Below the pieces are notes generated by a model. That model did no database searches. It was not told the origin of the DNA and worked only from the letters and a program-made list of their open reading frames with translations. From Chlorella sorokiniana (Eukaryota; Chlorophyta; Trebouxiophyceae; Chlorellales; Chlorellaceae), in assembly GCA_025917655.1 (NCBI GenBank), contig CP084613.1, positions 1,986,001 to 2,050,000 of the forward strand: a DNA stretch of 64,000 bases, in the 5' to 3' direction. The position numbers and the translations under genes were made by a program. Position 1 is the stretch's first letter. Every line of letters begins with the position of its first letter. Positions 60,030 through 64,000 of this stretch are shown here, piece by piece.

Positions 60030-60835
60030 GGATGCCCCGTGTGTTCCCCCTCCTCTCACGCCTTGTTGTGCGGGAAATTGACGCCCATTCCGATCACTGC
60101 CGAGTCAGCCTGCGGGTGTCGCTCCCTGCGGGGGTGCTGGGTGCACACCCCAGGGCCGCAGAGGCTGAGCATGGGGACACGTTCGTTTATACCTTGCCTG
60201 ATCCTGTGGCACCCACCTGGGACCCTGCCTGCGGGCTGACTACAGTGAGTCCCTTTTGGGGGTCGGTCAGGGTCCGCCCAACGGGCCGTTGGCGGGGCAG
60301 GGAACCTTGGCGCAGTTCCTTGAGCTGGATCCGGTGGCAGTGGCCAGCTTTGTGCACGATTGCTACCGTCTGTCGTCGGCTGGAGACGACACCCGCAGCA
60401 ACGAGTCTGAGCCCCAGCACCAACGCCAGGCGACCCCGGCTTGAGTGGGCCTACGTCGCCGTTCTCGCGGCCCCTGCCAGCCCGTGCCCGGCTTGCGTTG
60501 GATTCTTCCTTGCCTTTTCTGACTCTGTCACATTTTGCCTTGCGTTGCATCCTTGTCATCGTGCTTGCGTGCATGTTTGCTTGCCATCCTGTTTGCTTGT
60601 TGCATCTTGCATCTTCACCTCGGCGCGATGGGGGTGCGCGGGCCCGGGCTTTGACTCCCGTGTGCGACTGGCCTGATGAGTTCCAATTTTCGAGGGCCAG
60701 CCCGTTCCCGTCTGTTGGCATATGCCGCAGCGGGGATGGGCCCGTTTGCGTCTGAGCTGCATGGGCCCTATGGCCCGTCCGCGAGGGACAGTGATTGTCC
60801 AAAAGGCAGACGTTAAACACGTGTAACATAACATC
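60030..60835 (+). mobile_element. LINE (non-LTR retrotransposon), internally deleted copy
   Basis: The left part (60030-60240) encodes an endonuclease end, LVVREIDAHSDHCRVSLRVS; SDHCRVSL is the conserved SDH motif of LINE apurinic endonucleases. At 60241 it jumps straight to the last 68 codons of the same ORF (GPPNGPLAGQGTLAQFLELD ... RQATPA, stop 60442-60444) and a 3' untranslated region of about 390 bp. The whole reverse transcriptase and zinc-knuckle part is absent, so this is a deletion derivative. The 3' part matches the copy from 63577 at roughly 90% by eye. The 3' UTR ends near 60835 (gttaaacacgtgtaac). Confidence 0.8.
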
Positions 60836-61139
60836 CACACCTTTGCAGAGGAACACCCCGTGCAGCCTGGCGCCAGCCGCGCTTTTGGGTTGCACTCAAG
60901 GCCCACCTCTCCAGCCACGTTGTGGCATTCCCTGCAGCCCGGCGGCGGCAAGTGGATGCCGCGAGGCGCACGTGGACGTCCTTTGGCATTGCTTCGGCGA
61001 GTGCCCCACACGCTGGTTCCACATGTTGGACCGCAACGCCTTACCAAACCAGCCCTTGGCAGAGCTCTTGCACCCATCTGACCCAGCGGCCCCAGCCGCA
61101 GATCTCAGCACGCCCGCGGGCCGCGAGCTTGCCTCAACT
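60836..61139. other. Unclassified, probably transposon-derived
   Basis: An open plus-strand frame includes EAHVDVLWHCFGECPTRWFH, whose His/Cys spacing resembles the zinc-binding end of LINE reverse transcriptases, but it differs from the LINE copies on both sides. Too short to classify. Confidence 0.3.
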
Positions 61140-62661
61140 GTTGAAAGTGGTTCCTGCGAACCCTCTGTTCAGCCTGCCGACTTGCATGTGCCCTTGTGTG
61201 TCATCGTCTGTCATCATCTGTCCTTGCTTGTCCGCGTCTGTCCTTATTTGTCTCGGTCTTTCTCTAGACCCTTCTAGAAGCTTCTCGACCCGACTTCTTC
61301 GGGACATTCCAGAACATTCCAGAAGCTTCCTCGCGCATTCTGCTGCATGCTTCCAGAAACTTCCAGAGACTTCTACACACTTCCGTGCATCCGTTTCCAG
61401 ATGCTTCTCGATCCTTCTGGAACCTTCTACAGCCTTCCGTCAAGGAGCTTCCAAATCATGCTGTGCATGCTGTGACTTTCAGCCGGTGGCCTATATAAGA
61501 GGCCTGTCGCCCTCGATGGCAACCTTTCCATCCTTTTATTTTCGGCTATCTTGCCCAACGGGCTGTTGCTTGTCGTGTAATTTCAACAGGTTACGGGCCC
61601 CAACTCTACCCACGCGCCACGCCACCGTCGTTGAGACTCTGCTGAGCCTACACAGTCCGGAGGCTTCTGGAAGCACTCCTGCTGAGTGAGTGAGGCTCAC
61701 CATGTCGGTTGAGGACAAGCCCGTGGTTGAGCGGCTGGACGTGGATAACTATGCCACGTGGAGCATCCGCATGCGTGCGCTGCTCATCTCCAAGGGACTA
61801 TGGACAGCTGTCACCGAGGACAGCGGCGCAGCGACAGGGATCAGAAGGCGCTCGCACAGATCATCCTTCACGGGCAGGACCACCATCTCATGACGGTGGG
61901 CATGTGTGAGACAGCTAAGCCTGGGACACCCTAAAAGGCGCCTATCAGGCAAAGACCACCGCCCGCAAGCTGCTGCTGCGGTGGGAGCTTACACAGCTCA
62001 AGATGAGCGCCACTGAACCGCTCACTGTGTATGCAGCGCGCACCAAGGACACTAAGACACAGCTGCGCGCTGCCGGCGAGGATGTGAAGGACCAAGAAGG
62101 AGCCATCCAGTTCCTGGCTGGACTGCCACCGGCCTACTACATGATCAGCGCCGTGCTCATCAGTGGAGACAAGGAGCTGACCATCGATGAGATGCTGCCC
62201 AAGTTACTTCAGGTTGAGCAAATGGCACAGCCTGAGCGGTCCAGCGAGGCAGCACTGGCAGCCAAGCCCACCGGGGGCTTTGGCGGGGGTCGTTGCAACG
62301 GCAGCGGCAAAGCAAGCCTCAGCGTAGGGAGAATCGCACGTGTTTCTACTGTGGCCAGCAGGGCCACATCAAGGCTGGCTGCCCGCAGCTCAAGCGGTAC
62401 CAGCTCCGCTCAAGCAGCAATGGCCAGCAGTACCGACGCACGGCGCCACCGCGCCAGTTCAACCAGCACGGCGCCATTGCCCTGACAGCTAACGGAGCAG
62501 TGTCAGCACCTGGCGGCTTCATGCGCTGGGTCCTGGACACCGGTCCGGTGCGTCCCCGCACATGACAAACAACAACAGCATCGTGCTCAACGCCCGCCCG
62601 CTGATTGAAGACGTCACCATCACCTTTGGCAATGGCGGCACAGGCAAGGCCACAGCCGTGA
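61140..62661 (+). mobile_element. Ty1/copia LTR retrotransposon, broken 5' part
   Basis: A fossil with a probable 5' LTR or leader (about 61140-61655, borders uncertain), a gag region from 61702 to about 62500, and the start of a protease region (WVLDTG near 62530). Gag is recognised by VEDKPVVERLDVDNYATWSI, the UBN2-type segment QLKMSATEPLTVYAARTKDT and a CCHC knuckle, CFYCGQQGHIKAGC. The element is cut off on the right at about 62662 by a LINE tail lying in the opposite direction. No integrase, reverse transcriptase or 3' LTR is in the window. It is broken, with at least two breaks besides the truncation. Age cannot be set without a second LTR. Confidence 0.75.
61272..61498 (+). promoter_or_regulatory. 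Heat-shock-element array and TATA box in the copia leader
   Basis: Four clusters of alternating TTC and GAA units, each unit five bases from the next: 61272-61289, 61307-61329 (five perfect units: ttccagaacattcc, then agaagcttc), 61351-61373 (five units, one changed) and 61395-61427 (seven units, two changed). This is the binding pattern of heat-shock transcription factor trimers. A TATA box (ctatataaga) follows at 61491-61500, about 200 bp before the gag start. Position and order fit a heat-responsive promoter of the element. Confidence 0.75.
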
Positions 62662-62930
62662 GAGAGATTGTTACACGTGTTTAACGTAAGCCTTCGGGAC
62701 AATCACTGTCCCTCGCGGACGGGGCATAGGGCCCCTGCAGCTCAGACGCAAACGGGCCCATCCCTGCTGCGGCCGAAGCCAGCAGATAAGAATGGGCAGG
62801 CCCTCGAAACCGGGAACTCATCAGGCCAGCAGCGCACGGGAGTCAAAGCCCGGGCCCGCGCACCCCCATCGCGCCGAGGTGAAGATGCAAGATGCAGCAA
62901 GCAAACAAGATGGCAAGCCACTCCACTCCC
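62662..62930 (-). mobile_element. LINE 3' tail inserted in the copia element
   Basis: This stretch is the reverse complement of the LINE 3' untranslated region at about 60590-60835 (shared blocks include ggccctatggcccgtccgcg and gggtgcgcgggcccgggctt). It carries only the 3' end, the usual product of incomplete reverse transcription, and lies directly against the copia protease region, so the LINE landed in an already present copia copy. Confidence 0.8.
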
Positions 62931-62939
62931 CTTTGCGCC

Positions 62940-64000
62940 ATGCATTACAACCTGACTTCTGTTCATCTTTACATTGGCCGTTGGCCGAGGCAGGGTTTTA
63001 CCCCCTTGCCACTCACTGGGGCAAGTTGGTGACCCGTTTCTGGAACAGGCTGGTGGGCCTTCCAGATACGCGCGTCACCAAATGGGCACTCTTTGAGCAG
63101 TTAGACCTTTGCGGGCGCACGGTGGGGCGGGTGGGGTGGCCCGCCAGCCGTGGGGGACCCAGGTTGTAGGATACCTTCGCAGCCTGGGGTTGGGTCCCCT
63201 TGATGGTGGGGAGCCCTGCCAGGTCGATGTTGGCGAGGCGTGCAGCCTCGCCGACGAGGCCCACGTCGAGGGCGTCCCTGCAGGGAGCACCATCCCAGCC
63301 CAAAGTGCAGTTTTACTGCGCTAGTGTGAGGGGGGCTCACGCGTGATACGTACTGCCGTCGCCCGCAATCGTACCTGACCGAGGTTGACAGCCGTGTGCG
63401 CATGGCCAGCCTTGCCAGGTTCCGCGCGGGCTGTCATTGGTTGCGGGTGGAGACTGGGCGGCGTGGGGGTTGGACAGGCCCAGCCGGATTTGCCCCCACT
63501 GCTCGTTGGGTGCTGTGGAGGACGAGCATCACATGGTGTTTGACTGCCCAAAGTATGCCCGCTTGCGAGCCGATTACAGTGAGTCCCTTTTTGGGGTCGG
63601 TCAGAGTCCGCCCGGCGGTCCGTTGGCGGGGCAGGGAACCTTGGCACAGTTCCTTGCGCAGGATCCGGTGGCGGTGGCTAGCTTTGTGCACCGCTGCTAC
63701 CGTCTGTCGTTGGCTGGAGACGACACCCACAGCAGCGAGTCTGAGCCCCAGCCCCAGCGCGAGGCGACCCCGGCTTGAGTGGGCCTGCGTCGCCGTTCTC
63801 GCGGCCCCCGCCAGCCCGTGCCCGGCTTGCGTTGGATTCTTCCTTGCCTTTTCTGACTCTTTCACAGTTTGCCTTGCTTTGCATCCTTGTCATCATGCTT
63901 TGCTTGCGTGCTTGCTTGCCATCCCGTGTGCTTGCTGCATCTTGCATCTTCACCTCGTCGCGATGGGGGTGCGCGGGCCCGGGCTTTGACTCCCGTGCGC
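62940..64000 (+). mobile_element. LINE, 3' part of ORF2 and 3' UTR (runs off the window)
   Basis: Coding sequence of the region after the reverse transcriptase: HWGKLVTRFWNRLVGLPDTR and VTKWALFEQLDL, then the zinc-binding end CPHCSLGAVEDEHHMVFDCP. The final part (SESLFGVGQSPPGGPLAGQG ... REATPA) stops at 63776-63778. The 3' UTR continues to the window edge. The 5' end is truncated near 62940, and the frame is not continuous across 63170-63480. EN + RT + CCHC-type order is that of the common plant/algal LINE clades. A Zepp-like element of Chlorella/Coccomyxa is a candidate but untested. Confidence 0.75.

Follow-up and report, generated by a model that had tools for sequence, protein, structure and literature searches.

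Phased heat-shock-element arrays in Ty1/copia LTRs of the green alga Chlorella sorokiniana, likely heat-inducible promoters

Control of copia retrotransposons by heat through heat-shock elements (HSEs) has been described for a few land plants, in which the HSE clusters are small. Heat-shock factor (HSF) trimers bind three nGAAn units, and two trimers are bound where four or more units are adjacent. The closest described system is ONSEN of Arabidopsis, whose four-unit element is activated in heat via HSFA1 and HSFA2; according to the accessible parts of two reports it is bound by HSFA2 in vitro, and its activation is strongly reduced in the hsfa2 mutant (PMC3907296, PMC5059998). Here, we describe a copia group of a green alga which has the same layout with several times more units and which holds every perfect four-unit site of the assembly.

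The window analysed is a stretch of 64,000 nucleotides of C. sorokiniana DNA. Between positions 61272 and 61451 it contains 23 TTC/GAA triplets, 19 of which are in the correct phase and form four runs on the forward strand. The triplet listing gives run 1 (61272–61284) as three units, TTC-GAA-TTC, run 3 (61351–61383) as five in-phase units with two steps of 10 bp, and run 4 (61395–61437) as six in-phase units with three steps of 10 bp. Run 2 (61307–61329) consists of five perfect alternating units, which makes it a heat-shock element of the 4P type (at least four adjacent in-phase nGAAn). The original prediction of four clusters with about twenty phased units agrees well with this count. It had also placed the array 65–220 bp upstream of the TATA box; the upstream placing stands, but the distance has to be corrected to about 55–220 bp, with the last run ending about 54 bp before TATATAA and a lone triplet at 61449.

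The array contains ten pairs of opposite triplets spaced by +5 and eleven pairs of like triplets spaced by +10, while the wrong spacings (like at +5, opposite at +10) are absent; it therefore follows the heat-shock-element rule. Across 5000 dinucleotide shuffles the mean was 0.29 for +5 pairs and 0.41 for +10 pairs, each with a maximum of 4, and none of the shuffles reached the observed counts, which confirms that phasing of this extent is very unlikely to arise by chance. The two counts sum to 21 in the array as against at most 4 in 181-bp windows across positions 1–61180, and a 160-bp scan of the whole window gave 4 for the best place outside the array among the 30 best places listed.

The array had been assigned to the leader of the gag gene, a reading which we rejected. 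The stretch is a complete 450-bp LTR of family A (61139–61588, forward strand; ends TGTTGAAA ... TTTCAACA), and the array lies in its U3 part. Copy comparison reveals that the LTR has 8-bp inverted ends common to other copies. Its ends are fixed by a solo LTR of family A on contig C3 (C3:2124322-2124771), located between 5-bp target-site duplications ATCCA, and by a 3′ LTR on contig C6 (C6:767592-768063), located 3′ of an RNase H region and a polypurine tract. The TATA box TATATAA (61492–61498) is flanked by GGCC at 61488–61491 and 61501–61504, all on the forward strand. A GGCC...GGCC frame around a TATA-like box is found at the same place in LTRs of families B, G and D, and in family B an inverted repeat GGCCTA...TAGGCC surrounds the box. 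Directly 3′ of the LTR lies a primer-binding-site-like sequence (61589–61610, forward strand), which is kept in other copies and is presumably similar to the initiator tRNA-Met anticodon arm; a 17-base tRNA pattern with at most one mismatch had no match in the host assembly.

A short leader separates the primer-site-like stretch from a broken copia gag (61702–62562, forward strand; the start ATG at 61702 is taken from the sequence) with a zinc knuckle at 62335–62388. The profile matches, PF14223 (profile positions 65–168 of 172) and PF00098, fall on separate open pieces, and gag alone is left among the domains found by profile search in this copy. The copia element is cut off by the tail of another repeat on the reverse strand (62669–62918), an inverted copy of 60579–60828 with 90% identity. 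Copies of this tail, direct and inverted, surround the LTR (60224–60665, 60579–60828, 62669–62918 and 63558–64000), and related pieces are present in repeat clusters of several contigs. The window copy is thus a truncated relic. It has a near-identical duplicate 28.6 kb away (C3:2075734), with 100% identity over a 1001-base query and 99.7% over 1563 bases; because the flanks match too, the two are probably one insertion that was duplicated.

More complete relatives show the nature of the group. In a family B relative (L017), successive open pieces match PF14223, zf-CCHC, gag_pre-integrs, rve and RVT_2 in that order, and a family A relative (L013) has gag, integrase-side and RVT_2 pieces, its RVE match scoring 20.6 bits against a cut-off of 32.6. 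The element group is a Ty1/copia LTR retrotransposon, with copia-type gag and pol and integrase before reverse transcriptase. TG...CA ends together with 5-bp target-site duplications are present in the group, the duplications coming from copies other than the window copy. They read TGGAG for a solo LTR of family E and CGCCC for a D element on C2, and match in four of five bases for a D element on C3.

Versions of the array occur in no fewer than 25 related LTRs, copies and fragments together, spread over nine contigs (C2, C3, C4, C6, C7, C8, C9, C10 and C12). The count comprises 23 aligned copies, an interrupted copy on C2 and a fragment on C4, and these are not independent insertions, because the window copy forms a duplicate pair with C3:2075734 and those on C4 are parts of a tandem. 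Other copies, whether 5′, 3′ or solo LTRs, likewise have the array within the LTR, which is what the original prediction requires. The number of phased units per copy is 18–25 in family A, 25–27 in B, 25–26 in G, 22–24 in D and E and 11 in F, where the letters were assigned from the alignment and the copy named B at C2:3051 has a G-like start. A TATA-like stretch, weak in B, G and D, is recognisable by eye 3′ of the array in the aligned copies. Over the aligned LTR, family A shares 69% identity with family B, and the array is nevertheless kept. Family A arrays differ by two indels of 10 bp, which keep the phase; 1-bp deletions within the array break it in some copies.

Nine copies of the 23 in the alignment were scored against one another for identity of unit cores and of spacers, each pair both ways, which gives 72 comparisons. 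As aligned, the cores are better conserved than the spacers when family A is set against the other main families: identity was higher in the cores in all 24 comparisons of A with B, G, D and E (p < 0.05), where the p values are guides only, because the copies are related, and the aligner itself is biased toward matching motifs. Examples are A to G (core 51/57, spacer 72/109, p = 0.0006) and A to D (49/57, 69/109, p = 0.0015). Among B, G, D and E the same level was reached in 9 of 30 comparisons, for instance D to B (66/66, 195/218, p = 0.0017), with F in 4 of 16 and within A in neither of two. The decayed copy F on C8, scored from other families, has no core conservation (core 0.68–0.76, spacer 0.71–0.77). 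Shifting the core mask by 1–4 bases lowered core identity in all seven chosen comparisons, several by small margins. The expectation that phasing would be more conserved than the flanks is therefore correct for A against B, G, D and E but does not reach significance within A, in most comparisons with F and in most among B, G, D and E.

Some elements appear young. The LTR pairs of B elements on C4 (99.3–100%) and of a D element on C3 (98.7%) are near-identical and an open frame of 1242 aa spans the reverse transcriptase of a B copy, which therefore argues for recent activity. An older pair belongs to a D element on C2 (95.9%); two further values, 94.8% for B on C2 and 95.1% for G on C7, may each come from LTRs that are not one element's pair.

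In the 38.8-Mb assembly the five-unit HSE pattern, which includes run 2 of the window, has 77 matches (33 and 44 by strand) and its backwards control none. The perfect four-unit pattern has 55 + 72 = 127 matches (controls 1 and 2), which do not correspond to 127 separate elements because matches overlap within runs. All of these (55/55 and 72/72, with 0 unassigned) fall within this copia group on C2, C3, C4, C6, C7, C10 and C12, either in LTRs of family A, B or G or in the internal arrays described below, as assigned by hand-set intervals, some with margins. Families D, E and F have arrays by a looser rule that admits 10-bp steps, without perfect four-unit sites. The assembly consists of 15 contigs, 13 large ones and two organelle-like ones, C14 (77 kb; matches to LSU rRNA and a group I intron) and C15 (118 kb; a plastid-like reading frame recognised by eye), both judged from their first 2.5 kb.

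A profile search of the host revealed one match to the HSF DNA-binding domain above the cut-off, at C5:1574262. Runs of three or more phased units are absent from 13 host loci around HSF, HSP20 and HSP70 genes. We therefore rejected the array grammar as a common feature of host heat-shock promoters, since no four-unit site lies outside the copia group and the 13 loci have no such run. A graded scan of eight HSP20/HSP70 loci (whole loci rather than promoters alone, 20 shuffles each) and of HSP90 placed HSP70A alone clearly above shuffles, and the best score of the stretch containing the HSP90 upstream region was reached by 42 of 100 shuffles. About 200 bp before the ATG of HSP70A, a gene assigned by eye from its first residues, there is a weaker element of the same grammar which matches in 10 of 12 bases and is reached by 2 of 200 mononucleotide shuffles. 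Among the host genes examined, HSP70A alone suggests that the host HSF may use this grammar.

Chlorella centromeres mapped by CENH3 are described as forming one cluster each, in which Copia, L1 and RTE-X elements abound (available text of PMC11005252). In our assembly there are at least 89 matches to RVT_2, the copia reverse transcriptase, and all those listed fall on 11 contigs, each of which has a single cluster of them. Because of this likeness in arrangement, the copia clusters are probably centromeres. A sister copia family with a similar polypurine tract occupies the same clusters, and in five of its LTR regions (four near complete, one at C2:3059 ending after about 110 bp) none of the 5–14 triplets is phased; a sixth stretch on C8 without the polypurine landmark stands outside this count. 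The array is therefore, on that sample, a property of the lineage and not of the place. We rejected, on this small sample of 3′ LTR regions, the idea that it is a general trait of centromeric copia elements.

On C4 a 142-bp satellite flanks the B elements, and a tandem of the form LTR-internal-LTR-internal-LTR (C4:2266942-2289555) is inserted in it with the target-site duplication CAGAG at both outer ends; the tandem also contains an element of another family. A tandem satellite of about 150 bp at C12:1406001-1408915 is about 70% like that of C4. At C4:2271994-2272693 a sister-family LTR is joined directly to a B-type gag (313 bp, 100% to B), a junction which suggests that LTRs may be swapped between centromeric copia families. 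At C2:3092872-3093654 a B-type LTR with HSEs is interrupted by a sister-family LTR (C2:3093065-3093429).

In the C4 elements of family B and in a relative on C12, a second HSE array, accompanied by a TATA-like box, follows the pol stop and precedes the 3′ LTR. This array and an extra open reading frame are located at C4:2284034-2284840 (3034–3840 of L017), C4:2278555-2279395, C4:2267334-2268174 and C12:1410909-1412044. The insert is absent at C2:3051, at C3:2112 and in family A on C6, where the LTR follows within about 100 bp of the pol end. The internal array stands ahead of ORF3 (184 aa, C4:2284034-2284588), whose frame ends inside the 3′ LTR. The internal array may be the remnant of an older LTR. 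Aligned to the window LTR array, it scored above 1000 core-preserving shuffles; its score was reached by 1 of 1000 shuffles in alignment with the C10 copy and by 6 of 1000 in alignment with family B, and the TATA-side part alone did not exceed shuffles. The ORF3 protein looks coiled-coil-like by eye. A Pfam search gave no match and a PDB search a single, unconvincing one (E 0.4); at E up to 0.1, copies are confined to C4 and C12. The three C4 copies are identical and the C12 copy is interrupted, with seven replacement and three silent codon differences, and the protein thus shows no sign of selection. It is possible that in this one subfamily the second array separately drives the extra small protein.

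We consider it likely that the LTR arrays are HSF-driven heat-inducible promoters, which would work like that of ONSEN but with denser sites. Under heat stress the host HSF would bind the array as several trimers side by side; transcription would then start at the LTR and yield more element RNA and new copies, as in ONSEN, and the array would probably act more strongly than the ONSEN element. Replication slippage offers a different origin, in which the array is a 10-bp minisatellite and its heat-shock grammar a functionless by-product. Tandem Repeats Finder does detect short 10-bp repeats of 2.1–3.6 copies in the arrays, and slippage would likewise yield the two 10-bp indels between family A copies; however, spacers vary between units and families while the cores stay, and the four-unit sites are confined to three LTR families and the internal arrays, which makes a purely mutational origin improbable.

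Silencing is harder to set aside. The array may bind HSF while the elements are silenced in centromeric chromatin, leaving it as a heat-inert leftover of past activity. This agrees with the position of the copies in dense repeat clusters and with the many that are broken, solo or truncated, but the near-identical LTRs and the long open frame speak against it, and we regard it as possible, though rather doubtful. It shares its first step, HSF binding, with the promoter reading, so the likelihoods given for these two are not exclusive. Finally, the array might mainly serve centromere chromatin, through nucleosome phasing or a non-HSF protein, rather than transcription. The centromere-like location of the clusters fits such a role, but the sister LTR regions in the same clusters have no array and the TATA-like stretch lies 3′ of it in the aligned copies. 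The rotational nucleosome signal has a period of 10 bp, whereas TT and AA alternate here at 5 bp. We judge this role very improbable.

If the arrays are indeed heat-inducible promoters, a wider and more tentative picture can be drawn. The strongest HSF sites of the nuclear genome might be centromeric; heat might then recruit HSF to centromeres on seven or more chromosomes and couple heat to centromeric transcription and to DNA renewal by retrotransposition, with one subfamily using a second internal heat promoter for an accessory coiled-coil protein. We put this forward as a speculation that is less likely to hold than to fail. If true, heat stress would be wired into centromere transcription and turnover. 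The LTRs are also candidates for strong heat-inducible algal promoters.

The literature matches listed contain no report of heat-shock-element arrays in algal retrotransposons, with most subscription papers outside the coverage, and the accessible text of PMC9780303 nowhere mentions algae. Copia-2_Chlorella_SLA04 and Copia-1_Chlorella_NS are likewise copia elements of Chlorella; they form CENH3-marked or putative centromeres with one cluster per chromosome (available text of PMC11005252); the main text of that paper nowhere mentions heat or promoter. As a lead only, the 13 large contigs here equal in number the 13 centromeres of Chlorella sp. SLA-04 reported there (PMC11005252).

In Cryptococcus, TCN3 and TCN12 are also LTR elements with putative HSEs and mobilise at 37 °C, and the endogenous TCN3 copies of the studied isolates are restricted to centromeres, as is probable for the algal copies; however, the host is a fungus, and the putative HSEs number one in TCN12 and two in TCN3, with no dense array described in the accessible text (PMC12810828). 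Human satellite III is transcribed by HSF1 on heat shock and thus also brings a heat-shock factor to centromere-adjacent repeats, but as described in the accessible text it is a pericentric satellite without a retrotransposon promoter (PMC9032817).

The layout is closest to that of ONSEN/ATCOPIA78, COPIA37, TERESTRA/HATE and ROMANIAT5, heat-responsive COPIA families of Brassicaceae, which are likewise Ty1/copia LTR promoters with in-phase nGAAn elements (accessible parts of PMC3907296 and PMC5059998). Unlike that group, the elements described here have a green-algal host and a centromere-like location, and their heat response is a prediction. With its green-algal host, the algal copia is unlikely to be a member of the ONSEN/ATCOPIA78 family, and we infer that heat control, if present, would have been gained independently of ONSEN. 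The array was predicted to be denser than that of ONSEN, and it is: as reported, ONSEN has one cluster of four nGAAn motifs (PMC5059998) and A. lyrata TERESTRA a cluster of six (PMC3907296, PMC5059998), against 19 phased units in the window LTR and 18–27 per LTR in algal families A, B, G, D and E.
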